Assembly: GCA_003246255.1 (NCBI GenBank)
Contig: QKAX01000139.1
Location: 1 to 43,214, forward strand
Origin: Demequina lutea
Lineage (GTDB): Bacteria; Actinomycetota; Actinomycetes; Actinomycetales; Demequinaceae
DNA length: 43,214 nt
Reading direction: 5' to 3'
Translations under genes and position numbers: made by a program
Notes under the pieces: generated by a model
Database searches by the model: none
What the model was told of the DNA's origin: nothing
Seen by the model: the letters and a program-made list of their open reading frames with translations, nothing else
In this document: piece after piece, positions 10,952 through 27,477 of the stretch
How the letters are laid out: every line of letters begins with the position of its first letter
Numbering within the stretch: the stretch's first letter is position 1

Positions 10952-11074
10952 GGCACCTACTCTTGCACGCCCCAAGCGCCGCTCCCGACGCCTGGTCCCG
11001 GATGAGAGCCGGCGCGCGAGGGCGGGGCGGCCGCCCGCGGGTCGCGGGTGGCGCGGTCGTGGGGCGGAGGTCCC

Positions 11075-11102
11075 TTGTCGCGACGCTATACAAACGTATA
11101 GT
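11075..11102 (+). promoter_or_regulatory. Predicted TetR-operon promoter: -35 TTGTCG (11075-11080), 16-nt spacer, -10 TATAGT (11097-11102)
   Basis: Hexamers and spacing read directly; -10 ends 9 nt before the ATG. Confidence 0.5.
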
Positions 11103-11121
11103 CTCTTATACATGCGTATAG
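11086..11121. promoter_or_regulatory. Tandem palindromic operator candidate for the TetR regulator
   Basis: CTATAC-AAAC-GTATAG (11086-11101, perfect arms) and TTATAC-ATGC-GTATAG (11106-11121, one mismatch), 20 bp centre-to-centre; the second encloses the ATG. Confidence 0.7.
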
Positions 11122-11756
11122 CCGATGAGGACATCACCTCCGCCGCGCGAATCCGCGACGCTGCCGTCAGGTGCTTTGCGCGCGCTGGCTTCGACGCGAG
11201 CCTCCGCACCATCGCCGACGAGGCGGGGGTCTCTCTTGGCCTCATCCGTCACCACTTTGGCTCCAAGGAGGGCCTGCGCGCCGCGTGCGACGAGCGCGTG
11301 CTGTGGCTCATGGATGACCTGGGGCGTACCAAGGCGCAGTCGCCGTCGCCCATCGACGCCGCCTTCGCCGCGATGGCTGACCGCCCTGAGCTGGAGCCGG
11401 CGGTGCTCTACCTCATGCGCGGCCTCGCGGCGGGCGGTCAGTTCTCGGCTGCGGTGGTGGACCAGATGACGGCGAGCCTCGAGGAGTACCTCGAGAAGGG
11501 GGTTGCCGACGGCAGCATCCGCCCCTCGGGCGACAACCGGGCCCGCGCGCGCTACCTCGTCCTGAGCGGCGTGGGCGGCATGCTGCTCCACTTCATGCAG
11601 TCCGGCGACTGGTCCGAGCGCGCATGGCGCGACTTCAGTGCCCTCAGCACGCGCCCGAGCCTCGAGTTGTACACGCAGGGCCTGCTCGCCACGAGCGATT
11701 TCCTGGATGCCTACACGGCGCTCAGCAGCGACGGAGTTGAAGGAGGCGACGCATGA
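11112..11756 (+). CDS. TetR/AcrR family transcriptional regulator
   Basis: ITSAARIRDAAVRCFARAGFDASLRTIADEAGVSLGLIRHHFGSKEGLRAACDE is a TetR HTH. Confidence 0.9.
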   Translation: MRIADEDITSAARIRDAAVRCFARAGFDASLRTIADEAGVSLGLIRHHFGSKEGLRAACDERVLWLMDDLGRTKAQSPSPIDAAFAAMADRPELEPAVLYLMRGLAAGGQFSAAVVDQMTASLEEYLEKGVADGSIRPSGDNRARARYLVLSGVGGMLLHFMQSGDWSERAWRDFSALSTRPSLELYTQGLLATSDFLDAYTALSSDGVEGGDA

Positions 11757-12652
11757 CGGCAGTGATTGAGGCCAGCGGACTGGTCAAGACGTTCGGGCGC
11801 ACGCGGGCGCTCGACGGATTCGACCTCACTGTGCAACCGGGCGAGGTCGCCGCCTTCCTGGGGCCAAACGGGGCAGGCAAGTCCACCACGATCCGCATCC
11901 TGTTGGGCCTGCTGCGTGCCGAAGCCGGCGCCGTGACGCTCCTTGGAGGCGATCCGTGGCGCGACGCAGTGGCCCTGCATCGGCGTCTTGCGTACGTGCC
12001 GGGAGATGTGACCCTGTGGCCCACGCTCACGGGCGGAGAGGCGATCGACACGCTGGGGCGCCTGCGCGGCGGTCTCAACGAGGCGCGCAAGCGCGAGCTC
12101 ATTGAGCGCTTTGACCTGGACCCGCGCAAGAAGGGCCGCACGTACTCCAAGGGCAATCGGCAGAAGGTCGCGCTCATCGCGGCGCTCGCGGCCGATGCCG
12201 AGTTGTATGTCATGGACGAGCCCACCTCGGGCCTCGACCCCCTCATGGAGGCCGAGTTCCAGAAGGTGGTGCGCGAGCTCACCGGCGAGGGGCGCACAGT
12301 GTTGCTATCGAGTCACATCCTGGCGGAGGTGGAGAAGCTGTGCGACACCGTGACCATCATTCGCGACGGGGTCACTGTGCAGTCGGGACGCCTCGCGGAT
12401 CTACGCCACCTCACGCGCTCCGCCGTGACAGCGCGCACGCGTGACGACGCTGCGGGCATCGGCGAGCTTGCCGGGGTTCACGACTTCGCGTCGGGCGCCG
12501 ACGGCCTGGTCACCTTCTCGCTCGACGGCGACCACACGGCCGACGTGATGGCCGCGCTCGCCGCGCGCGGCATCGTCGCGCTCGAATCGGCGCCGCCCTC
12601 GCTCGAGGCGATGTTCCTGAGCGAGTACGGCACGGCCAAGGCGTCGAAGTGA
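11753..12652 (+). CDS. ABC exporter ATP-binding protein
   Basis: Walker A GPNGAGKST, YSKGNRQKVALIAALA signature, Walker B LYVMDEPTSGLDPLME; ATGA overlap with the regulator. Confidence 0.92.
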   Translation: MTAVIEASGLVKTFGRTRALDGFDLTVQPGEVAAFLGPNGAGKSTTIRILLGLLRAEAGAVTLLGGDPWRDAVALHRRLAYVPGDVTLWPTLTGGEAIDTLGRLRGGLNEARKRELIERFDLDPRKKGRTYSKGNRQKVALIAALAADAELYVMDEPTSGLDPLMEAEFQKVVRELTGEGRTVLLSSHILAEVEKLCDTVTIIRDGVTVQSGRLADLRHLTRSAVTARTRDDAAGIGELAGVHDFASGADGLVTFSLDGDHTADVMAALAARGIVALESAPPSLEAMFLSEYGTAKASK

Positions 12653-14249
12653 GTGCCTTCGCAGGCACCGGCATGCTGCTGCGCGTCGCGCTGCGCAAGG
12701 ACCGCGTGCGGCTCAGCGTGTGGGTGGGCCTGGTGGTGCTGCTCGCGTTCTACTGCGTGGACGCCGTCAAGGCGGCGTACCCCAACGAGGGCGACCTCGC
12801 GGCTCTGCTCGGCTTTGTGCAGGGCCCGGCGGGAGTCGCGATGACGGGGCCCGGCTACGGGCTCGATACCCCCACGTACGCGACTGTCTTCGCGGGCGTG
12901 TACGCGCTCTACGTGTACCTTGCGGTGGCGTTCATGGGCGCCACCGCCGTGGTGCGGCACACGCGCGCCGACGAGGAATCGGGCCGCTCGGAGCTGATCG
13001 GAGCGGGGGCGGTGGGGCGGTTCGCGCCGCTCACGGCCGCCGGAGTCGTCGCGATGGGCGCGAGCCTCGTCACGGGGGTCGGCATCGTGGGCGCCACGTG
13101 GAGCTACGGGAGCGCTGCCGACGCCTGGCTACTCGGCGCGTGCGCGGCGTCGGTGGGCATCGTCTTCGCCGGCATCGCCGCGGTGGCCGCGCAGCTCGCC
13201 GAGCGCGCACGCTCTGCGATGTCGATGGCCTCTGCAGTGATCGGCGCGGCGGTGGTGGTGCGCGGAGTGGGCGACATCATGCGCGAGCACGGCAGCTGGC
13301 TGTCGTGGTTCTCGCCGTTCGCGTGGGCGCAACAGACTCGCCCCTTCGCGGAGCCCCGCTGGTGGCCGCTGCTGGTGCCCGTGGTGGTGGCCGCGTGCCT
13401 GTGGGCGGCGTCGGCCGTGCTGCTCGCACGGCGCGACATGGGGGCCGGGCTCGTGGCCCAGCGCCCCGGCCGGTCGCATGCGTCGCGCTGGCTGGCCGGG
13501 CCGTACTCGCTCGCCCTGCGGCTCGAGCGGGGCTCGATCATCGGCTGGTCGCTCGGCGTGGGCTTCTCGGGACTGCTGTACGGATCCCTTGCCGCGTCGG
13601 TGCAGGAGTCGCTGGCGAACCTGCCCCAGAACCTCAAGACAGTGCTGCTCGCGCAGGATGGCGACCTCGTGGACGCGTACGCCGCCACCATGGCGTTCTT
13701 TGATGCGTTGTTGGTCGCGTGCTTCGCGATTGTGGCCGTGCATCGGCTCGCCTCCGAGGAGGCCGCAGGGCGCGCCGAGGTGGTGCTCGCGGCGGCCGTG
13801 AGCCGACGCACGTGGGTCGGTGCCTCGGTGGTGGCGGCGCTCGTCGGCTCGGTAGTGGTGACCCTCGCGGGCGGCCTGGGCCTGGGCATCGCCGTGGGTG
13901 CGTCGCTGGGCGATTCCTCTCGCGTGTGGCCTCTCGTGCTCGCGCAGGCGGCGTATCTGCCTGCGGTGGCGGTCGTCATAGGCGTCACGGCCGCGCTCGC
14001 GTCGGCGCGCCCGCGCTGGGTCTCGGCCGCGTGGGCGCTGGTGGGCTGGGGCATGTTCGCCGGGTTCTTTGGCCAGCTGGTGAGCCTGCCGCAGGCGGCG
14101 CTCAACGCGTCGCCGTTCCATTCCAGCACATCCCCAGGTCTCCGATCGAGCCGCTCGCCGCCACTCCGCTCGTGGCGCTGCTGGCGGCGGGCGCGGCGCT
14201 CGTGGGCGTCGCGCTGGTGACCTTCCGCCGCAGGGACGTGCCCGCGTAG
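12649..14249 (+). pseudogene. ABC-2 type exporter permease, C-terminal frameshift
   Basis: Multi-TM protein with GTGA overlap to the ATPase; frame breaks at tandem TTCCATTCCA (14116-14125); removing one TTCCA restores ...SPFQHIPRSPIEPLAATPLVALLAAGAALVGVALVTFRRRDVPA*. Confidence 0.85.
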
Positions 14250-14296
14250 GACCGGCGCTCCGCGTCCGCGGACCGTGCGCGCTGTACCGTGGCCGC

Positions 14297-14947
14297 ATGC
14301 ATGCCGACGCGATCGATCCCACCGCGGGCTTCCTGGCCATGGATGTGTGGTCCATCGTGGCGCTCGCAGTGGGCGCCGTGCTGGCGGGCGCGTGGGCGAT
14401 GTCGCGCGGCTACGGGCGCGACCCCCTCGGCGCCCTGGTGAAGTGGTGTCAGGCGCGCGGCCTCGAGTTTGTGGAGCGGCCGGACGAGCCCGACGTCGTG
14501 GGCACCTTCGCAGGTCGCGTGGATGGCGCCGAGGTGCGCATCGAGGTGAGCAGGCTGCCTCACCGCAAGCTCACCGACCTCCCGCCGCAGCTCACATCGA
14601 TCTCCGCCGCGACGGCGTACGACGGGCCGCCCGTGCTGATTCAGCCAGCGGAGTGGGTCATGGACGTCGAGGGGAACGCTGTCGAGGGGCGGCTCGCCAC
14701 CGGCGATCCGAGCCTCGACGAGCGGTGGGCTGTGTACGGCGCCGACGCCTTCGCGGCCAAGCGCGTACTCACCGCGGCGGTGCGACGCCGCCTCGCGGAG
14801 CCCGACACCGAGCTGTTGTCGCTGCTCATCGCGGACGGCGCCGTGGTCACCCGGCACCCCGGCATCGTGCACGAGGCCGCTGAGCTCGAGCGCAGGCTCG
14901 CGGTGGTGACCGATGTTGCCGCGGCGCTCGCGGCTCCCGTCGCCTGA
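14297..14947 (+). CDS. Hypothetical protein with N-terminal TM helix
   Basis: MDVWSIVALAVGAVLAGAWAM TM segment; -10-like TACCGT 6 nt before the ATG. Confidence 0.65.
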   Translation: MHADAIDPTAGFLAMDVWSIVALAVGAVLAGAWAMSRGYGRDPLGALVKWCQARGLEFVERPDEPDVVGTFAGRVDGAEVRIEVSRLPHRKLTDLPPQLTSISAATAYDGPPVLIQPAEWVMDVEGNAVEGRLATGDPSLDERWAVYGADAFAAKRVLTAAVRRRLAEPDTELLSLLIADGAVVTRHPGIVHEAAELERRLAVVTDVAAALAAPVA

Positions 14948-14998
14948 CCCGCGGCCACCGGCGTCGCCCGTAGACGTAGCGAGGCCCCAACATGCGCA

Positions 14999-15037
14999 GC
15001 GAGGCCCCCGGATCCCAAGCGGATCCGGGGGCCTCGC
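14999..15037. terminator. Strong bidirectional hairpin between convergent genes
   Basis: Perfect 17-bp inverted repeat GCGAGGCCCCCGGATCC-CAAGC-GGATCCGGGGGCCTCGC; no long T tract, but located between two convergent stop codons. Confidence 0.8.
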
Positions 15038-15047
15038 GCTATCAGGC

Positions 15048-17657
15048 TTACTCGCCCTCGGTGATGGACTCCCACGCGGCGGCGCGGTCGGCGGCCTGGT
15101 TCTCCAGGGCGCGGCGCACGCCGTCGCGACCCTCGATCACCAGGCGCTTGAGCGCGTCGTGAGCGTCGGCGTTGGCGGCGAGCCAGGCATCGGCCTTGTC
15201 CTGGAGGTCTTCCACGCGGCCGGCGTGCACGGTGGGGTAGAGGCCCTCGATCAGGTTGGTGGCCATCTCGTTGGTCTTGTCCTTGTAGACGCGGCGCAGC
15301 ATGTCGAAGTACTCGTCGATGTAGGGCTCCACGATCGCTGTGTCGTGCACGTGGTTGAAGCCCGCCGTGGTCTCCGCCTGCAGCGCGTTCGGCAGGTCCT
15401 TGCCCGCCGGGGCGTTGATGAGGGCGTCCCACGCGGCACGCTTGGCCTCCGCCGTGGGGATGGCCGCCTTGGCGTGCGCGGCGCGGCGGGCGCCCGACGC
15501 GGTGGCGTCCTTGGTGAGCTGCAGCTCGATGGCCACCTCGCCTGCGCGGCCGCCGGCGACGAGGGAGATCAGCAGATCCCACGCGAGGTCGGCGTCGATC
15601 GGTAGCTCCTCGAGGTGGAGCTTGTCGTCCAGGATCGCGGCCACGGTGTCGAGCATGGGCTCCGTGTTGGCGAGCGAGGCGTACGCCTTGAGGAACTGCA
15701 GCTGGTTGTCCGAGCCGGGCTCGGCGGCCAGCGTGAGCTGCCACAGCACGCGCGCGGCGTTGCTCTGGGTCTCGTCCGCCACCTCGGGGGCCACGTACAG
15801 GCCAAGTGCGGTCGCGAGCTGGCGCAGCAGCACCAGCACAGTGGTCGACTCGGTCTCCTGGCCGATGTTCTTCAGCACCAGGTCAACGAACTGACGCGCG
15901 GGCATCTCGCCGTCGCGCGTCATGTCCCACGCGGCGAGCAGCACCATCGAGCGGGCCAGCGGGGGCAGCGTGGCGACGTGCTCCACCGCGGCCGCGAGCG
16001 ACTCGTCGTCCAGGCGCACCTTGCAGTACGCGAGGTCATCGTCGTTGACCAGGATCAGCGCGGGGCGCTGCTTGCCCACCATCTCGGCGATCTCGGTGAG
16101 CTCGCCGTCGATGTCGGTCTCGATCGCGATGGAGCGCGTGAGCTCGCCGTCCACGAGGTCGTAGCCGCCGATGACGAGGCGGTGCGGGCGCTGCGTCGGC
16201 CATTCGGCGGGGACCTCCTGGGCGACGGCGAAGCGGGTGATGACCCCGGCGTCGTCCGTCTCCACGACGGGCCGCAGCGTGGTGATGCCTGCCTTCTGCA
16301 GCCACACTTCGGACCAGCCGCTGAGGTCGCGGCCGGAGGCCTTCTCGAGCTCCACGAGCAGGTCGTTCAGGGTCGCGTTGGAGTGGTGGTGCTTGCGCAT
16401 GTACTCCGCGACGCCCTTGAAGAACTCGTCCTCGCCCACAAAGTAGACGAGCTGCTTGAGCACCGAGGCGCCCTTGGCGTACGTGATGCCGTCAAAGTTG
16501 ACCTCGACGTCCTCGAGGTCCTTGATCTCGGCCATGATCGGGTGCGTCGAGGGCAGCTGGTCCTGACGGTAGGCCCACGACTTCTCAAGCGAGTTGAACG
16601 TGACCCAGTTGTTCTCCCACTTGGTGGTCTTCACAGTGGCGAGGGTTGAGGTGAACTCCGCGAAGGACTCGTTGAGCCACAGGTCGTTCCACCACTTCAT
16701 GGTGACGAGGTCGCCGAACCACATGTGCGCGAGCTCGTGCAGCACGGTGACGGTGCGGCGCTCGACGCGCGCCTGCGCGGGCTTGGAGCGGAACACGTAG
16801 TCCTCGAGGAACGTCACGCAGCCGGCGTTCTCCATGGCGCCCGCGTTGAACTCGGGCACAAAGATCTGGTCGTACTTCTCGAACGGGTAGTCGGTCTCGA
16901 ACTTCTCCTCGTAGAAGGTGAAGCCCTTCTGGGTGTCGTCGAGGATCACGTCGGCGTCGAGGTAGTCGGCGAGGGCCTTGCGGCAGTACACGTTGGCGCT
17001 CAGCGTGCCCTTGCGGGACTCCACCGAGCCCTGCACCTCGTGGTACGGACCGGCGACGATCGCGGTGACGTAGCAGGGGATGGGCACGGTGGGGGAGAAG
17101 GTCCACGTGGCGACGCCGTGCGTGGTGCCGGCGATGTCGATCGAGCCCTCGGCGGCGGCCTTGGTGGACGGCGAGTTGCTCAGCACGTGCCAGTGATCGG
17201 GCGCGGTCACAGTGAAGCTGAACGCGGCCTTGAGGTCGGGCTGCTCGAACACTGCGTAGACGCGGCGGGTGTCGGCCACCTCGAACTGCGAGTAGAGGTA
17301 CACCTCGCCGTCCTCGGGGTCCACAAAGCGGTGCAGGCCCTCGCCGGTGTTCATGTAGGCGCAGTCCGCGACCACCACGAGGGTGTTGTCCTCGGCCAGG
17401 TTCGGCAGCGCGATGCGGGAGTCCACAAAGTGGGTCGCGGGGTCCAGCTCCACACCGTTGAGCGTGATCGAGTGGACGGTGGGCGCGATGAGGTCAATGA
17501 ACGTCTCGGCACCGGCGGTGGCCTTGAACGTCACGGTGGAGGTCGAGCGGAAGGTTTCCTCGGAGGTGGTGAGGTCCAGCACGACGTTGTAGGTCTCGGT
17601 GGAGACGAGCGCGGCGCGGGCCTCGGCCTCGGCGCGCGTGAGGTTAGTACCAGGCAT
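15048..17657 (-). CDS. pepN: Aminopeptidase N, M1 family (second paralog)
   Basis: GAMENAGCVTFLEDYVF; HELAHMWFGDLVTMKWWNDLWLNESFAEF; colinear with the 8360-10951 protein. Confidence 0.93.
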   Translation of the reverse strand: MPGTNLTRAEAEARAALVSTETYNVVLDLTTSEETFRSTSTVTFKATAGAETFIDLIAPTVHSITLNGVELDPATHFVDSRIALPNLAEDNTLVVVADCAYMNTGEGLHRFVDPEDGEVYLYSQFEVADTRRVYAVFEQPDLKAAFSFTVTAPDHWHVLSNSPSTKAAAEGSIDIAGTTHGVATWTFSPTVPIPCYVTAIVAGPYHEVQGSVESRKGTLSANVYCRKALADYLDADVILDDTQKGFTFYEEKFETDYPFEKYDQIFVPEFNAGAMENAGCVTFLEDYVFRSKPAQARVERRTVTVLHELAHMWFGDLVTMKWWNDLWLNESFAEFTSTLATVKTTKWENNWVTFNSLEKSWAYRQDQLPSTHPIMAEIKDLEDVEVNFDGITYAKGASVLKQLVYFVGEDEFFKGVAEYMRKHHHSNATLNDLLVELEKASGRDLSGWSEVWLQKAGITTLRPVVETDDAGVITRFAVAQEVPAEWPTQRPHRLVIGGYDLVDGELTRSIAIETDIDGELTEIAEMVGKQRPALILVNDDDLAYCKVRLDDESLAAAVEHVATLPPLARSMVLLAAWDMTRDGEMPARQFVDLVLKNIGQETESTTVLVLLRQLATALGLYVAPEVADETQSNAARVLWQLTLAAEPGSDNQLQFLKAYASLANTEPMLDTVAAILDDKLHLEELPIDADLAWDLLISLVAGGRAGEVAIELQLTKDATASGARRAAHAKAAIPTAEAKRAAWDALINAPAGKDLPNALQAETTAGFNHVHDTAIVEPYIDEYFDMLRRVYKDKTNEMATNLIEGLYPTVHAGRVEDLQDKADAWLAANADAHDALKRLVIEGRDGVRRALENQAADRAAAWESITEGE

Positions 17658-17714: not shown

Positions 17715-17729
17715 TAGCCTGTCCGTGTG
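17715..17729 (+). promoter_or_regulatory. Predicted leaderless -10/start: TAGCCT-N6-GTG (pnuC)
   Basis: TAGCCT 17715-17720, GTG at 17727. Confidence 0.5.
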
Positions 17730-18332
17730 ATGGGGTGGATTGCTGCGCACTGGACCGAACTCGTCGGCTTTGGCACGGGACTTGTGTGCGTCGCGCTCGC
17801 GGCGCGCAGGAACGTCTGGAACTACCCGATCGGGCTGGCAAACAACGTCGCCTTCTTTGTGCTCTTCCTTGGCGCTGGCCTCTACGCGAGCGCCGGCCTG
17901 CAGGTGGTCTACGGCGCGCTGGCTGTGCACGGCTGGTTCCGTTGGGTCACGCGCGTAGAGAAGGACAGGGAGTACATCGCCCGCACGCCTCGCCGCCACG
18001 TGCCAGCGCTTGTCGCGGCGTTCGTGGTGCTCGCGGCTGCCATCGCATGGGTGCTGCTGACGTATACGGACTCCACGGTGGCCGGCTGGGACGCCTCGAC
18101 CACGGCCGCGAGCCTGGTGGCGCAGTACCTGCTCAACCGCAAGCGCATCGAGAACTGGTGGGTGTGGATGGGCGTGGACGTCGTCTTTGCCGTGCTTGCC
18201 GCCGCGTCGGGCCTGTGGATCACTGCCTCCCTGTACGTCATCTTCTTTGTGCTGTGCGTCTGCGGCTACCGCTCGTGGCTCGCTGTGGAGGCGGCCGCGC
18301 GCCGCGATGTCCAGGTGCCGGCGAATGCCTAG
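17727..18332 (+). CDS. pnuC: Nicotinamide riboside transporter PnuC
   Basis: RNVWNYPIGLANNVAFFVLFLGAGLYASAGLQVVYGALAVHGWFRWV is PnuC-typical; followed by nadR. Confidence 0.9.
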   Translation: MMGWIAAHWTELVGFGTGLVCVALAARRNVWNYPIGLANNVAFFVLFLGAGLYASAGLQVVYGALAVHGWFRWVTRVEKDREYIARTPRRHVPALVAAFVVLAAAIAWVLLTYTDSTVAGWDASTTAASLVAQYLLNRKRIENWWVWMGVDVVFAVLAAASGLWITASLYVIFFVLCVCGYRSWLAVEAAARRDVQVPANA

Positions 18333-19347
18333 CCCGCGCTACCGGCATGGCCTCGTGATCGGCAAGTTCTACCCGCTTCACGCGGGCCACTCGCGCCTGA
18401 TTCGCGAGGCGCAGCGCGCGTGCGAGCGCGTGACTGTCGAGGTGCTCGCGTCAAGCGTCGAATCGATCCCGGGCGACGTGCGCGCCGAGTGGGTGCGCGA
18501 GGACCACCCGACCGCGCGCGTGGTGTGGGGGCTCGACGACCTGCCGATCGACTACGAGGATCCAGCACTCTGGGACGGCCACATGCAGCTGATGGAGTCG
18601 CTGCTGGACGAGCCGGTGGATGCCGTCTTCACGTCCGATGCGTACGGCGAGGAGATGGCGCGGCGCCTGGGTGCCGAGTGGGTGCAGGTGGACGCGGGGC
18701 GGGGAGAGATTCCGGTCTCCGGCACGGCGATTCGCGGGGACCTGGCTGCGCACTGGGGCGAGCTGTCGTCGGCAGTGCGTGCGTCGCTCGCCGCGCGAGT
18801 GGTGGTGCTCGGCGCCGAGTCCACGGGGTCGACCACGCTTGCCGCGGCGCTCGCCGACGCGCTCGGCACCGCGTGGGTGCCCGAGTACGGCCGCGACTAC
18901 ACGGTCACCCGGCCGGGAGGGCTCGAGGCCCCCTGGACGTCTCCTGAGTTTGAACTGGTCGTGGCGGCGCAGATCGCGTGGGAGGGCGCCGCCCTGCGCT
19001 CGGTCCCCACACCGATCCTGGTGTGCGACACGGACGTGCTCGCCACCGCGCTGTGGCACGAGCGATACGTGGGCGAGGCCGCGCCGCGCATCCTGTCCCG
19101 CGCCGCCCAGCATCGGCCGGCCTTGTACGTGCTCACTGGCGACGAGATCCCCTTTGTGCAGGACGGCACCCGCGATGGCGAGCACATCAGGCACGCGATG
19201 CAGCAGCGGTTCAGGGACACCCTGGCCGAGGCAGGCGTGCCGTGGGTCGAGGTCACGGGCTCCGTTGAGGAGAGGGTCGCGGCGTCGCTCGCGCACATCG
19301 ACCGCGTGGTGCTTCCGGGGCTTCGGTTTGCCCCGCCGCTAGGCTGA
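18325..19347 (+). CDS. nadR: NadR-like bifunctional NMN adenylyltransferase / ribosylnicotinamide kinase
   Basis: HGLVIGKFYPLHAGHSRLIREA nucleotidyltransferase motif; VSGTAIRGD; kinase P-loop-like GAESTGSTTLA; overlaps the pnuC 3' end by 8 nt. Confidence 0.88.
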   Translation: MPSPRYRHGLVIGKFYPLHAGHSRLIREAQRACERVTVEVLASSVESIPGDVRAEWVREDHPTARVVWGLDDLPIDYEDPALWDGHMQLMESLLDEPVDAVFTSDAYGEEMARRLGAEWVQVDAGRGEIPVSGTAIRGDLAAHWGELSSAVRASLAARVVVLGAESTGSTTLAAALADALGTAWVPEYGRDYTVTRPGGLEAPWTSPEFELVVAAQIAWEGAALRSVPTPILVCDTDVLATALWHERYVGEAAPRILSRAAQHRPALYVLTGDEIPFVQDGTRDGEHIRHAMQQRFRDTLAEAGVPWVEVTGSVEERVAASLAHIDRVVLPGLRFAPPLG

Positions 19348-19354
19348 CGGCATG
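19340..19354 (+). promoter_or_regulatory. Predicted leaderless -10/start for the MoxR cassette: TAGGCT-N6-ATG
   Basis: TAGGCT 19340-19345 inside the nadR 3' end, ATG at 19352. Confidence 0.5.
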
Positions 19355-20914
19355 GCCGACCGCTGGCATCACCTGTCCGCAAGTCCCACCTCGCCGCGAG
19401 CCACCGCGCCTCAGCAGATGACAGCTGAGGACCTGGTATCGGGCGGGCCGCGCCACGATGTAGGTCTCGACGAGCGCCTTCGTCAGGCGTACTACTGGAT
19501 CGTCAACACCGCCGTCATCTCGCCGTACTACGACATCGAGTTCTCGGTCACCCCGCCGCTCACCTTCTCGCTCGGCGACGCGGGTGCGGAGCTGAGCCTC
19601 CCGGACGATGCCTCGTACTCGTCGAACGTGCTGATCCCGCTCCTCACGTTCGCCGTGGGCGGGCGCTGCCTGCTCGTCGGCGGCCCTGGCCGAGGCAAGA
19701 CCACGGTGGCGGTGCTGATGGGCGTGATGGCGGGCACTGATGCGGCCGATGTGCGACGTTCGGTACAGCAGGGGCAGCCCCAGCTCACCGTCTCGGACCT
19801 GGTGGGCATCCCGCTGCCCAAGGACCTCATCGGCGCGTCGCGACTCACCGACATTGGCATCGCCTGGCGCGACTGGCTGTCGCTGCCTGTCAAGATCATC
19901 GACGAGTACAACCGCATCCCCACCAAGACGCAGTCGGCGCTGCTCACGATGGTGGCCGAGGGGTACGTCGAGAGCCACGACCAGATGCGACGCACGGCGC
20001 CCGATGGCGGGGTGGAGAGCTGGTACTTCACCGCGAACGACGACGCCGGTGGCGGTACCTTCCCCGTGATCCAGGCGCTCAAGGATCGCCTCGACGTGAC
20101 GGTGCAGGCGGTCGGCTTCAACAGTCGCTTCTTTGACGAACTGGTGGCGCGCGTCGAGGCCGGGGACCGGCCAGAGGACAACGTGCCCGCCGAGCTCGTC
20201 TTCGATGCCGACGACCGTGCGGCGATGCGCGCATTGGTGCGCGGCTTGCCCATTGAGGCCCCGGTGCGCAGGCGGCTCGAGTTCTTCTTCTCGCACTTTG
20301 AGTTTGTGCAGCACGGAGGCAAGAGGTTCGAGTACCGCACCAAGGACGTGGTGGCGACATCGGGCGTCGATGTGGGGTCCATCGTGCGCGCGAACGGCGG
20401 CGCCGATCTTGAGGCGGACCTCGGTGCCCAGACGCTGAATGGGCTGTCGGTGCGCGCCCTGCAAACCCTCGTGCTGTTCTCCAAGGCGATGGCGTGGTTC
20501 AGGGGTTCCGGCACCGTGACGGCGGCCGATGTGAGGGCCGTCCTGCCCTTCGTGCTGCGCGGCAAGCTGCAGCCGCACCTCGATCACCCCCGGTTCGCGG
20601 AGGGCGCGGAGCCCGAGTTGGCGTCCGACGCCGCCTCGTGGCTCACCTCGCTGTGGGACGAGTCAGGGCGACTCTTTGACGCCCTCAACCTTGGCCGCAC
20701 GGATCCAGTGGGCGACCTTCTCCACGAGTTCTCGAAGGGCCTCGACGGGCTGGACGGCGTGGAGGTGATGCGCAGGCTGACGGCGATCGAGTCTCAGATT
20801 CGCGCGGTCGCCGATGCCGGAAAGCTCTACGGGCGACACTTTGACGATCTCACGGCCCTCAAGTATTTGCACCAGCGGTACACGGCCTATCTCGCCTGGC
20901 GGGAGCGCGGGTGA
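19352..20914 (+). CDS. MoxR-like AAA+ ATPase
   Basis: Walker A GGPGRGKTT; Walker B VKIIDEYNRIPTKTQSALLTMVAEGYVE; sensor-1/Arg region WYFTANDDAGGGTFPVIQALKDRLD. Confidence 0.9.
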   Translation: MADRWHHLSASPTSPRATAPQQMTAEDLVSGGPRHDVGLDERLRQAYYWIVNTAVISPYYDIEFSVTPPLTFSLGDAGAELSLPDDASYSSNVLIPLLTFAVGGRCLLVGGPGRGKTTVAVLMGVMAGTDAADVRRSVQQGQPQLTVSDLVGIPLPKDLIGASRLTDIGIAWRDWLSLPVKIIDEYNRIPTKTQSALLTMVAEGYVESHDQMRRTAPDGGVESWYFTANDDAGGGTFPVIQALKDRLDVTVQAVGFNSRFFDELVARVEAGDRPEDNVPAELVFDADDRAAMRALVRGLPIEAPVRRRLEFFFSHFEFVQHGGKRFEYRTKDVVATSGVDVGSIVRANGGADLEADLGAQTLNGLSVRALQTLVLFSKAMAWFRGSGTVTAADVRAVLPFVLRGKLQPHLDHPRFAEGAEPELASDAASWLTSLWDESGRLFDALNLGRTDPVGDLLHEFSKGLDGLDGVEVMRRLTAIESQIRAVADAGKLYGRHFDDLTALKYLHQRYTAYLAWRERG

Positions 20915-21594
20915 CACTCCGTCTTGCGGCGCACCTCGCCGCACCCCGCGTAGCCGCCGCGCCGATGCCTCCCTTTGAGGGCCTCGATGCCGCTGCGGTG
21001 ACGCGCGCCGCGGTGGCGCAGGGCGCGGAATCCGAGGCGTTCGCCGCGCTCGTGGCGGCCGGACAGGCGGCGGGCGAGTCGCGGCCGCTCGACCTGATTG
21101 CGATCGCGGCCTGGCGGGCAGGGGCGATCACGCTGCGCGCCGATGCCTTGGCGCGTCTGCGCGAGCGCGACTCGGATGATGTCGCCGCGGCGCTCCTCGG
21201 CTGCGCGCCGCACGAGGTCGCTGAGTTTGTAGAACGTCAAGCGGCTGACAGATGGTTCATGCCGGGATCCGACGGCAAGGCCGGCTACGTCTGCTCGGTG
21301 GGAGGCTTCGCGGGCATCGGCGGCGCGTTCCGGCGTCCCGTGGAAGAGGGCGTCGCCCTCGCCGATGACGGCGCCTTTGCGGTGCGCGAGGGACCCCGGT
21401 GGTGGCGAATCGACGCCGATGTATGGTGCGCGCGCCTGGTGCCGCTCGACGCCGCGCCCCGCGAGGCGTCGGGAGTGGTGCCGCTGCGGGCGGACGAGCC
21501 CGTCGCGTCGGCGATGTGGGCTGACGGCGTGCGCGTCTCCCTCATGGTGCCCCCGCAGACCCACCTCGCGTGGCTGTACGTCGAGCGCGCGTGA
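20911..21594 (+). CDS. Uncharacterised cassette protein, helical N-terminus and apparently beta-rich C-terminus
   Basis: GTGA overlap with the MoxR stop; no recognised motif. Confidence 0.7.
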   Translation: MTLRLAAHLAAPRVAAAPMPPFEGLDAAAVTRAAVAQGAESEAFAALVAAGQAAGESRPLDLIAIAAWRAGAITLRADALARLRERDSDDVAAALLGCAPHEVAEFVERQAADRWFMPGSDGKAGYVCSVGGFAGIGGAFRRPVEEGVALADDGAFAVREGPRWWRIDADVWCARLVPLDAAPREASGVVPLRADEPVASAMWADGVRVSLMVPPQTHLAWLYVERA

Positions 21595-23390
21595 AGCACG
21601 GCCGGGCGAAGAAGCCGGACGACGCGGCGATCGCCGCGGCCTGGGCGTCCGCGCTCGGGCTGTGGGGTGTGCACATGCACGATCCCGTGAGTGCGACTGA
21701 CGGCAAGGCGCACGGCGCGTTCGCGTGGTTCGGCTTTCCTCCCACCGTGCACGTGGACCACGGAATGCTCGCACAGCAGGGGGGAGCGGACGAGCTCGAG
21801 ACGGTGTTTGCGCACGAGATCGGACACCATGTGCTCGCGCCGGCAACCCGCATCGCGAGCCTCAAGATTCGCCATCAAATGGCGCGAGCGCTCGCCGCCT
21901 CCGGATCGAGGGACCCCGCGCGCCACGCCCCGTTGCTGGCGAATGTGTGGAGTGACCTGCTCGTCAACACGCGCATCGTGGCGATGCAGCGCGAAGCCAC
22001 GGGGGAGACCGGGCGCGACGACATCGGCATGGTGAGGTTGTGGCGAGCGTTGCGGACCCCTGAGACGTCGCCGCTCATGTGGGTCTACCTGCGCGCGAGC
22101 GAGACCTTGTGGCGTCTGCCGGCGGGAACGCTGTGCGACGCCGCCCCTCCCCGAGCCCGCGTCACGGGCACGGCGTCGCTCGCGTCGCATGGCGCGGTCG
22201 GTCCCGGCGTCGAGTCCGTCGAGGACCTCGCGCGGCAGCTGCGCACCATCGCGCGCACGCATCCCGAGAGCGACCCCGATCGCCTCGCCAGCGTGGCACG
22301 CACGTTTGCTCACGATCCGGTGGGCGGCGCGCTCGCCTTTGGGCTCATCGCCGCGCCCTATCTTGTCGCCGACGACGACGAGCGTGGAGGTGGCGCGGCC
22401 GCGGGGTCCGGCGGAACGGGGTGTGCTGACGAGAGCGGTCCGGCCACCGCGGCCGAGATGTCACGCGTCTTGGGTGACAGGAGGATGTGGGACCCGCCCC
22501 CTGCGTCAGAGCTCGACGAGGCGTCGCGCGCCGCGGTCGCGGGCGAGGCAGGTCAGGGCCTGCAGCTTGCCGATACCCAGGCGCTGTACAGCGCGCTGGC
22601 CACCGACGTCGTGACGGTTGCCTGGTACCGCGCCCAGGCACTGCCATATGTGCGGCCGTGGACCAGGCGGTCGGAGAACGTGCGCAGTGAGGACCTGCCG
22701 GGTCCCGTGGACGTGTGGGAGGCAGGCGACGACCTTGCCGACCTCGACTGGCCCGCCACCTTGCGATCGAGCCCTGTGGTGGTGCCTGGCGTGACGACGC
22801 GGCGACGCTCGTGGCTTGAGGACGACGCGGAGCCAGGCGAGCGCAGCATCACCCTTGACGTGTACGTCGACTCGTCTGGCTCGATGAGGAACCCGCGGGC
22901 CGGGTCGCCCGCGGTGCTCGCCGGCGCGATTCTTGTCTTGTCCATTCTCAAGGGAGGCGGCCGAGTGAGAGTGACGAGTTTCTCGGGCGCCGGTCAGGTG
23001 GCAGGAGGCGAGACTTTCGTCGACGACGCCGACGCCGCCCTTCGGGACCTGCTGCACTACTTTGGCGGCGGCACGAGCTTTCCCCTTGACCTGTATCGCG
23101 ACAGGTATGCGGGTCTACCGGCGGCGACAACGGCCACCGAGCGTCACGTCGTGGTGCTCTCGGATGACGGTCTCGCGTCGATGTTCGGCGTGCGCAACGA
23201 GGCATACGCACATGTCGCCGCCACTGTGCGAAGGGTGTTGACGACGGGCACGCTGCTGCTCGCGGATCGGCTCCATGGCGTGAGTGCCGTCGCGGGCGAG
23301 GCCGGGTACGACGTCATCTATCTTGATGCCATGGACGATGCTCCCGCCGCGTGCGCGGCGCTTGCGGAGGTGCTCCATGGCGGCGCTTGA
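21591..23390 (+). CDS. Zincin-like metallopeptidase domain fused to a vWA domain
   Basis: FAHEIGHHVLAP (HExxH at 21813-21827) and downstream NVWSDLLVNTRI; C-terminal MIDAS DSSGSM (22869-22886), GGGTSFPLD, VVLSDDG; GTGA overlap with the previous gene. Confidence 0.88.
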   Translation: MKHGRAKKPDDAAIAAAWASALGLWGVHMHDPVSATDGKAHGAFAWFGFPPTVHVDHGMLAQQGGADELETVFAHEIGHHVLAPATRIASLKIRHQMARALAASGSRDPARHAPLLANVWSDLLVNTRIVAMQREATGETGRDDIGMVRLWRALRTPETSPLMWVYLRASETLWRLPAGTLCDAAPPRARVTGTASLASHGAVGPGVESVEDLARQLRTIARTHPESDPDRLASVARTFAHDPVGGALAFGLIAAPYLVADDDERGGGAAAGSGGTGCADESGPATAAEMSRVLGDRRMWDPPPASELDEASRAAVAGEAGQGLQLADTQALYSALATDVVTVAWYRAQALPYVRPWTRRSENVRSEDLPGPVDVWEAGDDLADLDWPATLRSSPVVVPGVTTRRRSWLEDDAEPGERSITLDVYVDSSGSMRNPRAGSPAVLAGAILVLSILKGGGRVRVTSFSGAGQVAGGETFVDDADAALRDLLHYFGGGTSFPLDLYRDRYAGLPAATTATERHVVVLSDDGLASMFGVRNEAYAHVAATVRRVLTTGTLLLADRLHGVSAVAGEAGYDVIYLDAMDDAPAACAALAEVLHGGA

Positions 23391-23988
23391 CCCCTTGCTC
23401 GCCGCGTGGACGCGCTTGGGAGTGCGCGACACTGACCTGTGGGCGCGCACGGTGCCGGGCCCACGGCTCGCCGACGTCGAGGCGCGGCTATCCGCCGTGC
23501 CAGCTCCGTTCGTCGCCGACGAGGCAGCTCCGCTAGCGATTGTGCGCGACTGCGGCATCGGAGGCACGTTCGCGGCGGAGGCGTTGTTGGGAGATGCGCG
23601 AGCGGCCAAGGGCGCCGCCATCGCGGCATGGCTGATCGGGTCCGAGGACCTCTACGGACCGCTGGATCCTCCGCTCGCCGCGGGTGCGGCACCGCTCCTT
23701 GTCGATGCTCTCTCGCTCAGGCTCGCTCCGACTGCCGATCCGCTGACGTGGATCGGGGACGCACAACGCCGCGAGGAGGCGGCTCGATGGTCGCTCCTGG
23801 CGCTGGGCTATCGGCCGGCGGGAGAGGGCATCCACGATGCGTCGAGTCTGTTGTCGTCCCTCGACTCGCTGCGCCGCGACGCCGCGCTCGCGGCGGTGCT
23901 CGAGGAGCAGACCCATCGCCAGGCAGTGGCGGCGAAGCTCGCCGAGGCGCGTGCGCGTGAGGCGACGGCGCGGTACACGCGCGAATGA
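23377..23988 (+). CDS. Uncharacterised, mostly helical cassette protein
   Basis: Overlaps the vWA gene by 14 nt; C-terminal charged helix SLRRDAALAAVLEEQTHRQAVAAKLAEARAREATARYTRE. Confidence 0.7.
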   Translation: MAALDPLLAAWTRLGVRDTDLWARTVPGPRLADVEARLSAVPAPFVADEAAPLAIVRDCGIGGTFAAEALLGDARAAKGAAIAAWLIGSEDLYGPLDPPLAAGAAPLLVDALSLRLAPTADPLTWIGDAQRREEAARWSLLALGYRPAGEGIHDASSLLSSLDSLRRDAALAAVLEEQTHRQAVAAKLAEARAREATARYTRE

Positions 23989-25436
23989 CGACCTCGGCGG
24001 GAGGCGGCACCTCGTGGGCCGAGCGCGACGAGGCGGATCCCCTCGCGCTCGATGAGTACCGCCCCGGCGAGTCGGCAGTGCTCGCCGACGAGGAGCGATG
24101 GCCCGAACTCTCCGTAGAGGAGAGGGCCAGGCTCGCGGCGTGGCGCTCGCATCCCGACGCCCCACGGTGGACCCACGCGACCGGCGACCGGCTGCGCCCA
24201 GGGGACGCCGAGCGCGTGGCATCGGCGCTGCCGACCGACGGATGGCTCGAGAGTCACCTGGAGGTGGCGAGGGGCCTGGTTCACTACCGTCGCTTGAGCG
24301 GCTTGCGCGAGTTGGCTGACTTCCCGCCCGTGTCGCGCGCCGACCTCATGAGTGACGTCTCAGCGTTCGTACCCCTCGACGCGGATCTGAGCGGCGCTGT
24401 GCACGGGTCGAGCTCCGGGTCGACGGGCGCGGCGCTCGTGGTGCCCGACGACATCGACGACAACGCGCGCACCTTTCACACCCTGCGCCGCCTTGTCCAG
24501 GCCCATGCGGGGCCGTGGGAACCCGATCCCCACCGCGTGGCGCTGGCGCACGTGGTCCACCAGCGCGAGGCCTTCACGTATGTCTCGCTCATCACGAGCT
24601 TTGAGCGCACGCCCATGATGCGCATCAACCTTGACCCCGCCGACTGGCCAGAGCCCGGCTCGAGGGGCCGCTATCTCGCCGCGGCGAACCCCCAGGTCAT
24701 CACCGGCGATCCCATGAGCCTTGAGACCCTGCTCGACGACGAGGTGGGTCGCGGCCTCGCGCCGCTCGCGATTGCGAGCGGGGCGGTGGAGCTCTCGGAC
24801 GGGTTACGTGCCGCCCTCGAGGCCCGATTCGCGTGCCCGGTACTTGACATCTACGGACTGCATGAGACACGGCCGCTCGCGTATCGCGCTGACTCCGGTC
24901 CCTTTAGGGTCTTGCCTGGACGGATCGTGGTCGAGACCCTCGACCATCGCGGGGCCCCTGTGGCGCAGGGCGAGGTGGGGGAGATCACCGTCACGGTGGG
25001 CCAGAATCCCTTCCTCCCGCTCGTGAGGTACCGCACAGGGGACTTCGGGGCTCTGGTTGATCTTCCCGGCGGCGGAGTGGGCATCGACCACTTCGAGGGG
25101 CGTGCCCACACGGTCTTCACCGGACCTGGAGGTGCCGCCGTGCCTGCAGTTGACCTCACGCAGCATCTGCAGGCGCATGGCGCGCTGGGCTGGGAGGTCG
25201 TTCAGCGTGCCGATGGCGCTGTCCGTGCCCGCATCGCCGGGGGCGATGCGGAGGCGATCCGTGCTGCTCTGGTGGCGATGGTGGGCGAACGTGTGACGGT
25301 GGAGAGAGTCGCTACCGTGCGCGAGCTCGGCGTCGGTAAGCCCCGCCGATATCGGTCCGAGGCCGCCCCCGTCCAGCGCAGGAGCCGCTCCGAAGAGACT
25401 GCAAAGCCAGCGGAGATGGAGGGGGACGGCGTATGA
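23985..25436 (+). CDS. ANL-superfamily adenylate-forming enzyme, PaaK/CapK-like
   Basis: SSSGSTGAALVVPDD (A3), VLDIYGLHETRPLA (A5), LPLVRYRTGDFGALVD (A7), FEGR (A8-like), GVGKPRRY (A10-like Lys); ATGA overlap with the previous gene. Confidence 0.8.
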   Translation: MTTSAGGGTSWAERDEADPLALDEYRPGESAVLADEERWPELSVEERARLAAWRSHPDAPRWTHATGDRLRPGDAERVASALPTDGWLESHLEVARGLVHYRRLSGLRELADFPPVSRADLMSDVSAFVPLDADLSGAVHGSSSGSTGAALVVPDDIDDNARTFHTLRRLVQAHAGPWEPDPHRVALAHVVHQREAFTYVSLITSFERTPMMRINLDPADWPEPGSRGRYLAAANPQVITGDPMSLETLLDDEVGRGLAPLAIASGAVELSDGLRAALEARFACPVLDIYGLHETRPLAYRADSGPFRVLPGRIVVETLDHRGAPVAQGEVGEITVTVGQNPFLPLVRYRTGDFGALVDLPGGGVGIDHFEGRAHTVFTGPGGAAVPAVDLTQHLQAHGALGWEVVQRADGAVRARIAGGDAEAIRAALVAMVGERVTVERVATVRELGVGKPRRYRSEAAPVQRRSRSEETAKPAEMEGDGV

Positions 25437-26014
25437 GGGCGTGGGGTGGCGTCACGGCGGCAGCCGCATTCGCGATGGTGGCGTGCTCGCCACCCGGCAC
25501 CGACGCCCTCACCACCTCCGAGCAGGCCGTCACCGAGCGCCTCGGCATGATCCAGGCCGCCGTGACCGACTGGTCGGATGCGACTACCCTCGCCGATGCG
25601 CGGGCCGCCGCCGAGCGCGCTCGCAACCTCGTCGTCGGACCGGACAACGAGCTGTACGGCGACGGCGACGGCGACGGCGTCATGGGTGGGGAAGCGGAGC
25701 GAGGGCTGCTGCCAGGCCAGACCGAGGAGCCGGGCATTGCTGCGGCCGCCGACTCCCACGAGTGCGCGGTCGCTGACGTCCTGGGAGGCTCGTGGGAGGA
25801 CCCGGCGTCGCGGTGGGACGAAGCGCTGGCGGTCTACGACGTGTGGACGCCGGGCAACAACACGATGCCGCGGCTCGCGAGCCACCCGCAGCGCATCGTG
25901 GGCTGGGCGACGCTCGCGCTCGCGGCGGATGACCTCGACAAGGCGCACGACTACGCCGGCCACGCCCAGATCCACGTGGATGTGAGCGTGCGCGCGATCA
26001 GCGACTGCGGTTAG
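25433..26014 (+). CDS. Small secreted lipoprotein with acidic DGDGDG loop
   Basis: Signal peptide and lipobox FAMVACSPPG; GPDNELYGDGDGDGVMGGEAERGLLPG; ATGA overlap with the ANL gene. Confidence 0.75.
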   Translation: MRAWGGVTAAAAFAMVACSPPGTDALTTSEQAVTERLGMIQAAVTDWSDATTLADARAAAERARNLVVGPDNELYGDGDGDGVMGGEAERGLLPGQTEEPGIAAAADSHECAVADVLGGSWEDPASRWDEALAVYDVWTPGNNTMPRLASHPQRIVGWATLALAADDLDKAHDYAGHAQIHVDVSVRAISDCG

Positions 26015-27477
26015 CCCCGCTCCGAGTCGGCAGCGCGCTTGTGCGTGTACATCGCGTGATCGGCGTGCGTGAGCAGCTCGTCGACAGTCACCGACTCGCC
26101 CGAGCGCGCTGTCGAGACGCCGACGCTGGTGCGGACGTCCACGGGGCCAACGCTCAGCTGGAAGGGGGTCGCAAACACGCTCTCGACGCGGGCCCGGGCG
26201 CTCTGGGCGATCGCGTCAGGCCCTCCCTCGAACACCACGATGAACTCGTCGCCTCCGAGCCGGCCCACCAGATCCTGGCCGCCAAACCGCACGGAAGCGC
26301 TGAGGCGCCCCGCCACCTCCTCAAGGAGCTCGTCGCCCACCGCGTGTCCGTAGGTGTCGTTGACCTCCTTGAACCCGTTGAGGTCCATGAAGCACACCAC
26401 CACGCCGCGCGCCTGACCCGCAGCGACCCGTTTCGCGAGATCCTCCAGGTGCGCGCTGACGGCGCGGCGGTTGGCGAGCCCGGTCAGGGGGTCGCCATCG
26501 GCGAGGATCTGCAGCTGCGCCTCCGACTCGCGATGCGCGTGAGCAATCTGGCCCACGCGCGTGAGCACCATCGCGATGATCACCACCTGCGCGACGGCCG
26601 CCGTGAGCCAGTCAACCTCAAGCCCCATCGAGGCTCGCCCGATGCCGATGAGCGGCCCCAGCGCGAGCGCCAATGCCAGCATGGCGATGCGCGCGGGAGT
26701 GAGGCGGCTCGGCGAGCGCTCGCCCACCTGGAACGCCGATGCGCCGGCGGGGTGAGCGACGGCGGCCCACGCGGCCGCATACGAGAGGGGCCAGGGGAGG
26801 CCCGTCCACCAGGTGGTACCGGCGCTCGAAGGGTCGCTGTACAGCGCGGTGATCACGTTTCCCGCCACAGCAAATGCGACGGACGCGGCGAAGTACGCGA
26901 GTGACGGGCGTGCGCGCGGATGTACAGCGCCCGACGTCCACACGCCAAGGATGACGCCAATGCACCCACCCAACGCCAACACCACGGCGAGGATGAAGGC
27001 GCGATCTTGGGCCGTCGCTTCGGCGGCGAGCGCGGGGCCGATGATCAGCAGCCACAGACCTACCGCGACGCCGACGCCGACGGTCGCGGCATCAAGCGCC
27101 CCGCCCGAGTCGCGCCGCAGTGAGGGCGTAAGCGATATCACCGCCGCGGCGAGCAGGAACAGGTATGCGAGCACCATGACGATGTCGGCGACAGGCTCGG
27201 GCGAGGAGTCGTGGCCAAGGCGGCCCACCGCCACCGTCCATGTGACGTTCGTGGCGGTGAGGAGCGCAAACGCGGCGAAGAGCATGCGGTAGACGTGACG
27301 CTGCAGGCCCGATGTGCGCACGGTCACGACGCCCACGGTCAACGCCACCACGGCGCTGCTCAACGTGACGGAGAGCCCCCGCTCGAAGGCGCCGCCAGAG
27401 ACATACAGCACCAGCGTCACCCCGGCCAGTGCGCACGCGGACGCGAATAGGCGCGCTGGAGTACGGGTGAATCTCAC
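26011..27477 (-). CDS. Membrane-bound diguanylate cyclase (GGDEF domain)
   Basis: Several N-terminal TM helices; DPLTGLANRRAVSAHLEDL...VVCFMDLNGFKEVNDTYGHAVGDELL...VGRLGGDEFIVVFEG; GTG start preceded by GAGGAG. Confidence 0.9.
   Translation of the reverse strand: MRFTRTPARLFASACALAGVTLVLYVSGGAFERGLSVTLSSAVVALTVGVVTVRTSGLQRHVYRMLFAAFALLTATNVTWTVAVGRLGHDSSPEPVADIVMVLAYLFLLAAAVISLTPSLRRDSGGALDAATVGVGVAVGLWLLIIGPALAAEATAQDRAFILAVVLALGGCIGVILGVWTSGAVHPRARPSLAYFAASVAFAVAGNVITALYSDPSSAGTTWWTGLPWPLSYAAAWAAVAHPAGASAFQVGERSPSRLTPARIAMLALALALGPLIGIGRASMGLEVDWLTAAVAQVVIIAMVLTRVGQIAHAHRESEAQLQILADGDPLTGLANRRAVSAHLEDLAKRVAAGQARGVVVCFMDLNGFKEVNDTYGHAVGDELLEEVAGRLSASVRFGGQDLVGRLGGDEFIVVFEGGPDAIAQSARARVESVFATPFQLSVGPVDVRTSVGVSTARSGESVTVDELLTHADHAMYTHKRAADSERG

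Follow-up and report, generated by a model that had tools for sequence, protein, structure and literature searches.

The window analysed here, a 43,214-nt stretch of Demequina lutea contig QKAX01000139.1, contains a tightly packed run of seven plus-strand genes, pnuC-nadR-MoxR-B-(zincin-vWA)-D-ANL, at positions 17727 to 25436, with successive junctions from pnuC to ANL of -26, +4, -4, -4, -14 and -4 nt. The unit opens with PnuC, a nicotinamide riboside (NMN-family) transporter (17727-18332; Pfam NMN_transporter 1.5e-48, TIGR01528 above its cut-off). NadR follows (18307-19347), combining an NMN adenylyltransferase and a ribosylnicotinamide kinase (CTP_transf_like; AAA_28 1.6e-31; TIGR01526 4.3e-54); its start codon, on which the 26-nt overlap with pnuC depends, is approximate. 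Next come a MoxR-type AAA+ ATPase (19352-20914), a conserved protein of no family, B, here in a short form of 227 aa (20911-21594), a zincin-vWA fusion (21591-23390), an all-helical protein, D (23377-23988), and a PaaK/CapK-like adenylating enzyme of the ANL superfamily (23985-25436). A lipoprotein-like ORF on the same strand (25433-26014) overlaps the ANL stop. The flanking genes are both on the minus strand: an aminopeptidase N-like gene (15048-17657), divergent from pnuC and 69 nt away, and a gene for a GGDEF protein (26011-27477).

The first-pass annotation had described a six-gene overlapping cassette at 19352-26014. All six ORFs are present with the overlaps it gave (junctions -4, -4, -14, -4 and -4 nt), but its borders hold only in part: the five genes from MoxR to ANL belong together, the lipoprotein does not, and pnuC and nadR were overlooked. 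That linkage, absent from the annotation, is the strongest functional clue to the cassette. The lipoprotein had been put forward as an envelope component. No homologue of it is found in cassette loci of other genera, and nine sister genomes, themselves free of the cassette, carry relatives with 49-59% identity on other contigs. It is an unlinked gene of the genus, and a role as a subunit is ruled out.

The enzymes of the unit have intact active sites. In the MoxR protein the Walker A K/T, the Walker B D/E, the sensor asparagine and an arginine are invariant in 80/80 sequences, and the Pfam lid model AAA_lid_2 scores above its cut-off with AAA_3 just below, identifying an AAA+ ATPase with the MoxR-type lid; identity between phyla is about 50%. 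The fusion protein has a gluzincin-like domain (HEIGHH at residue 75, Peptidase_M48 just above cut-off) in which HExxH, D122, N126 and E171 are invariant in 76/76; D122 and E171 are both candidates for the third zinc ligand. Its vWA domain was assigned from the MIDAS residues D427-S429-S431, T495 and D525, as Pfam gives no vWA match in the window's protein and a weak one in a single distant member. The D/S/S/D positions are invariant in 76/76 and the threonine is kept in 69/76, as expected of a vWA co-chaperone, and the zincin-vWA architecture is constant across loci.

Structure modelling of B and D, which had been proposed as a way to classify them, gave confident models but no known fold. 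B has a beta-rich C-terminal domain, to which the long form found elsewhere (310-370 aa) adds a helical N-terminal region. The long form is modelled by AF2 with a pLDDT of 90.6 and has no PDB match at E<=0.001; no Pfam family, VMAP included, was found in 42 members, bar one spurious Collagen match. D, a well-folded protein of 190-230 aa in the model (pLDDT 95.9), with a 39-residue C-terminal helix, has neither a Pfam nor a PDB match. Its free C-terminus is fixed, lying exactly 8 residues past the invariant Glu195 in 83/84 relatives. The tail consensus is E-A-A-x-[RQK]-[YW]-x-x-E/Y/V, and the window's own tail is E-ATARYTRE.

The ANL enzyme carries near-invariant SSGSTG, Y-x-x-x-E, YRTGD and R (A8) motifs, with an A10-type lysine in 60/72, and so belongs to the ANL superfamily. 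Its matches to AMP-binding and PaaK/DVU_1553-like models all fall short of the curated cut-offs (DVU_1553 at 54 bits against 300), and it is not a phenylacetate-CoA ligase, PaaK proper scoring 28.9 bits against 646. By sequence profile its nearest structures are PaaK 2y4o and 2y27. It shares the adenylation motifs with the PaaK/CapK-like ligases, and differs from them in its far lower family scores, a divergent N-terminal region and its fixed place in the cassette. That ATP-dependent activation of a carboxylate by this enzyme is coupled to the MoxR/vWA-zincin machine, as the first-pass annotation supposed, is a reasonable inference.

In phylum-wide draws, 15 genomes of the phylum share the order MoxR-B-zvWA-D-ANL, which is complete in 67/70 further loci with enough flanking sequence (B in 69/70), so that the gene order is beyond chance. 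Going by record titles, these loci span Actinomycetota, Pseudomonadota, Myxococcota, Planctomycetota, Desulfobacterota-type genomes and Bacteroidota. The pairwise distances of all seven unit proteins correlate at 0.85-0.94, although host phylogeny is partly behind these values. The earlier proposal that MoxR, zincin-vWA, ANL and the two uncharacterised proteins form one module is thus upheld; the neighbourhood check that was to decide it found ANL strongly kept beside MoxR/vWA and the lipoprotein not. The cassette also appears to be undescribed, as had been suspected. Our literature search found no published description of it, nothing on MoxR with PnuC/NadR or on PaaK with vWA, and one paper on MoxR with nicotinamide riboside, which is unrelated.

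The functional tie of the cassette to NadR/PnuC salvage is well supported. The pnuC-nadR pair lies upstream of the cassette in most lineages, including Actinomycetota, Bacteroidota (L141, L148) and locus L143, and downstream in others (L131, L136 and L140); the partners are therefore the same though the arrangement differs. Linked pnuC was seen in 12/16 loci first examined and in many more later. In a draw of 278 genomes, NadR was present in 11/11 known cassette genomes against 22/278 overall (4.5e-14, or 3e-12 even if two unseen NadR-negative cassette genomes are assumed), values to be read with the sampling being non-independent and the cassette genomes partly related. Linkage is not obligatory: Mycolicibacterium, Agreia, Schumannella and a further actinobacterial family, represented by two genomes (L047/L048), lack the pair near the cassette, and no NadR at all was seen in two cassette-bearing MAGs, both incomplete. 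An unlinked NadR, mostly adjoining PnuC, was found elsewhere in 13/15 cassette genomes lacking a linked one. The NadR motifs GKFYPLHxGH and GAESTGxTTL are conserved and both domains match clearly, with TIGR01526 below its equivalog cut-off. No NAD or other riboswitch was found upstream. As in a conventional pnuC-nadR salvage operon there are two genes, in that order and with the catalytic motifs; such an operon can stand alone, and cassette-free pairs do exist (L218, L219), whereas here it heads or follows a five-gene machine.

Within the genus the cassette is rare. Both NadR and zvWA occur in 1/44 genomes, the window's own, and the 43 others have no NadR. Across the order a protein search found it in 16/396, one of them weak. 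In one sister genome (G042, locus L167) the aminopeptidase N-like and GGDEF genes lie side by side, about 0.5 kb apart, and the cassette is missing. The block thus occupies a variable site, empty in one sister, with the flanking genes as its edges. Elsewhere, the L136 cassette adjoins a tmRNA. Cargo of a mobile element or phage was discarded as the main reading, since viral contigs, phages and plasmids gave no matches, though the sites resemble insertion sites.

Taken together, we consider it somewhat better than even (roughly 55%) that the genes encode a conserved ATP-driven MoxR-vWA remodelling or processing machine which works, and usually travels, with PnuC and NadR. The product is best read as a MoxR-vWA machine of a new class that is linked in function to nicotinamide-riboside/NAD salvage and has D for its client; the chemistry is one that we infer. 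Its parts would be a MoxR ring, the zincin-vWA protein as both co-chaperone and metallopeptidase, B and D as dedicated subunits, and the PaaK-like adenylating enzyme. In known systems the MIDAS binds an acidic ligand residue, and here it may capture the C-terminal tail of D. Co-variation between the Thr/Tyr change in the MIDAS and the terminal residue of D would have shown such binding; none was seen, D ending in Glu in all seven Tyr forms. ATP hydrolysis by MoxR would then remodel the D/B complex, which the zincin might trim or check, and the ANL enzyme would activate a carboxylate, that of a small acid or of the D C-terminus, so that it could be passed to a thiol or an amine. The product or the trigger would be connected with NR/NMN/NAD supply, so that NadR/PnuC would either feed into this chemistry or respond to what it yields.

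An unlikely alternative is a conflict or defence system of the MoxR-vWA ternary type, in which the machine would determine the threshold at which an effector acts and NadR/PnuC would replenish or regulate the NAD consumed by the system or the invader. MoxR-vWA conflict systems and NAD-linked effectors have been described (Kaur et al. 2020, PMC7159879). Like those ternary systems the cassette has MoxR, a vWA co-chaperone and at least one further conserved component, and it is patchy. Its sporadic occurrence in order and genus, the variable site in the window and the tmRNA beside the L136 cassette are consistent with defence, as is a TCAD9-type protein, whose domain takes its name from the ternary systems, immediately before MoxR in L134 (with NUDIX) and L144. 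However, none of the four third components is present: MoxR is preceded by NadR or by an unrelated gene and not by VMAP (PMC7159879), and iSTAND, FtsH and beta-propeller domains are absent from the cassette proteins of the window and of L131. The vWA is instead fused to a zincin in a constant architecture with no variable effector domain, and ANL and the NadR/PnuC linkage are further differences. The proteins are strongly conserved and not rapidly diverging, the cassette is single copy in 10/10 genomes checked, and plasmids, phages and viral contigs hold no relatives. PADLOC matched no known anti-phage system.

Rather less probable is a maturation role, in which MoxR/zincin-vWA with B and D would assemble a target enzyme or insert its metal or cofactor, ANL adding a step of acyl or adenylyl chemistry and NadR the nucleotide part. 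MoxR-vWA pairs are known to activate metalloenzymes, CoxD/CoxE, NorQ/NorD and CbbQ/CbbO being maturation-type examples. The nearest ANL model, DVU_1553, presumably sits in a metalloenzyme-maturation-like cluster, and radical SAM genes occur at four proteobacterial loci, but a metalloenzyme gene that could be the target was not found recurring beside the cassette. The classical pairs, RavA-ViaA among them, share an AAA+ ring, a MIDAS vWA partner and probable client remodelling; they are two-protein cores with known clients and have no zincin fusion, B, D or ANL. We know of no link between them and NAD salvage. RavA-ViaA acts on fumarate reductase (PMC10585395) and so serves as a precedent for metalloenzyme clients.

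A more specific version of the D-client reading is doubtful: D would be a ribosomally made substrate whose C-terminus is processed or conjugated, its E-A-A-x-R-Y-x-x-E tail being presented and trimmed by MoxR/zincin-vWA and the exposed carboxylate adenylated by the PaaK-like enzyme; the product would either be attached to a nicotinamide nucleotide from NadR or be derived from one. If true, this would amount to a protein-conjugation or peptide-cofactor pathway of an unknown sort, with ANL in place of E1- or Pup-ligase-type chemistry. Least probable is a peptide- or nucleotide-derived small-molecule pathway, the D tail being modified by radical SAM enzymes in some Proteobacteria, cut off by the zincin and then adenylated or otherwise activated through ANL, with NadR performing a nucleotide step: the tail length is fixed, a radical SAM gene closest to heme- and RiPP-type maturases immediately precedes D in L131 and L140, and a zincin with a conserved C-terminal peptide and a radical SAM enzyme is on record in accessory form for other MoxR-vWA systems (PMC7159879). 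FxSxx-type peptide processing has a radical SAM/SPASM enzyme, a separate zincin and a short precursor with a conserved C-terminal peptide; the cassette shares a zincin and a fixed C-terminal tail, but the radical SAM is present at only four loci, D is a long folded protein and not a short variable precursor, and no exporter or tailoring set was seen.

MoxR-vWA machines are widespread and their clients are known for few. On the preferred reading of a machine tied to NAD salvage, NadR/PnuC serve as a genetic tag pointing to that pathway as the place to seek its function, and a cassette found across phyla with two family-less, fold-unmatched proteins offers a direct route to what MoxR-vWA machines do. 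It would also add an unrecognised partner to bacterial NAD metabolism, including that of fast-growing mycobacteria (Mycolicibacterium).

The six open reading frames of the first-pass annotation (19352-26014) and their overlaps were recovered exactly when the window sequence was read again, but the borders of the cassette were not, as two genes just upstream had been left out and a lipoprotein-like ORF had been wrongly included. The upstream genes, pnuC (17727-18332) and nadR (18307-19347), were identified by Pfam and NCBIfam and lie directly before MoxR, with 4 nt between the end of nadR and MoxR. Seven genes, pnuC, nadR, MoxR, B, zincin-vWA, D and ANL, form one run at 17727-25436, with junctions of -26, +4, -4, -4, -14 and -4 nt, and 69 nt separate this run from the start of a divergent aminopeptidase gene. 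One sister genome has the aminopeptidase and GGDEF genes that flank the cassette here side by side, with no cassette gene in between. NadR was found in one of 44 genomes of the genus, namely the window's own, and therefore the seven genes most likely came into this genome as a block. At 8360-17657 of the window lies a pair of paralogous aminopeptidase N-like genes with about 49% identity and about 4 kb between them, and the stretch upstream of the second differs among sister genomes. In another cassette locus, L136 (9248-10001), the start of the cassette lies about 0.4 kb past a tmRNA gene; tmRNA genes are classic integration sites for genomic islands.

The acidic lipoprotein-like ORF, earlier counted as the sixth member, was rejected as part of the conserved unit. 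Relatives at 49-59% identity occur on other contigs in nine sister genomes, all without the cassette, and cassette loci outside the genus yielded none. The 4 nt that the ORF shares with ANL look like a chance local outcome of the insertion.

The zincin-vWA protein had no match in other members of the genus. It was matched in 16 of 396 genomes of the order, one weakly, and 397 genomes of the phylum gave one further full-length match and a group of distant ones. The order MoxR-B-zincin-vWA-D-ANL is kept in 15 other loci. A MoxR-alignment profile run against the GTDB genome collection returned 458 relatives, and the best 80 (three from the same assemblies as loci collected earlier) come, going by record titles, from Actinomycetota (Microbacterium, Agromyces, Agreia, Cryobacterium, Mycolicibacterium, Nocardioides, Rhodococcus, Cellulomonas, Oerskovia), Paucimonas, Fluviicoccus, Myxococcota, Flavobacterium, and Oxalobacteraceae, Thalassobium, Planctomycetota, Desulfosudis-labelled and Chloroflexi MAGs. 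Among these 80, all four MoxR partners were present in 67 of the 70 loci with enough flank. One Chloroflexi genome has the module split over two contigs (MoxR-B and zincin-vWA-D-ANL), and in Mycolicibacterium houstonense (L088:6953-15359) it is rearranged, with pieces of D and ANL duplicated. A distant actinobacterial group (L059-L062, eg L060:5771-9823) has MoxR, a family-less protein of 281-300 aa and a vWA protein, in L060 with a degenerate zincin motif; ANL, D and NadR were not found nearby. Three Bacteroidota genomes (L145-L147) carry an isolated zincin-vWA gene with no MoxR or ANL found nearby; it adjoins an amine-oxidase-like gene in L145 and a gene of equal size in L146.

Among the same 70 loci, nadR and pnuC are directly upstream in 40. 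They lie downstream of ANL in the further proteobacterial loci L131, L136 and L140, and upstream in L143 and in the Bacteroidota loci L141 and L148. The same partners in rearranged order in distant lineages speak for an association that reflects function rather than shared ancestry alone. NadR occurs in 22 of 278 genomes of the order, including all 11 cassette genomes known in that draw (4.5e-14, or 3e-12 if L047 and L048, cassette genomes without linked NadR that may be in the draw unseen, are counted as negative). Where NadR is not linked, 13 of 15 cassette genomes carry it elsewhere, mostly beside PnuC (in one, the adenylyltransferase half only), and those without NadR anywhere are MAGs. 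The NAD link of the cassette is supported by the data. A NadR homolog after ANL in a Chloroflexi MAG (L232:4001-4450) consists of the adenylyltransferase half only and has an internal stop.

The catalytic residues of the cassette are essentially invariant. The Walker A and B motifs, sensor Asn and Arg of MoxR are present in 80/80 sequences, and the zincin HExxH and the MIDAS D/S/S/D each in 76/76 zincin-vWA proteins; among 72 ANL sequences, most core motifs are kept in 66-71 and the A10-type Lys in 60. No Pfam family matches B or D, and a PDB search with their AlphaFold2 models (pLDDT 90.6 for long-form B, 95.9 for D) gave no hit at E<=0.001. A 39-residue helix forms the C-terminal end of D, whose stop falls exactly 8 residues past an invariant Glu in 83 of 84 sequences; the tail reads E-A-A-x-[RQK]-[YW]-x-x-E in most, with a final -Y or -V in some. 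A fixed length and fixed terminal residue of this kind were not found at the C-termini of MoxR and ANL. Such constancy of a free C-terminus between phyla would be expected if the tail were a site of binding, threading, cleavage or activation.

Some loci carry additional genes. One radical SAM family is found in four proteobacterial loci, directly before D in L131 and L140, and in L125 (4999-9816) a PFL-like glycyl-radical enzyme, the radical SAM protein that is probably its activase, and one of the cassette type stand in series before MoxR. A TCAD9-type protein precedes MoxR in L134 and L144. In L134 (7097-9763) it is an 888-aa protein in which an N-terminus that by eye is isochorismatase/nicotinamidase-like, with its usual Cys replaced, is followed by TCAD9/kinase-like and fused NUDIX domains.

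The module lacks the defining component of each of the four published ternary systems (VMAP, iSTAND, FtsH, beta-propeller) as well as their variable effectors, and it also differs from the two-protein MoxR-vWA pairs. The most fitting label is a new class of the MoxR-vWA kind. No paper combining its parts was found in the open-licence literature, although the supplements of the 2020 survey (Kaur et al., PMC7159879) may list it.

As is established for known MoxR-vWA pairs and summarised in that survey (PMC7159879), the vWA domain takes hold of a client by a segment that is acidic or extended, and the AAA+ ring remodels it. In the simplest scheme D, together with B, would be the client of the MoxR-vWA machine, and the zincin and/or ANL would receive its tail; co-variation of the MIDAS with the last residue of D was looked for and not found. 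On this scheme the zincin may cleave, and ANL ligate, in a reaction that would serve or sense nicotinamide-nucleotide supply.
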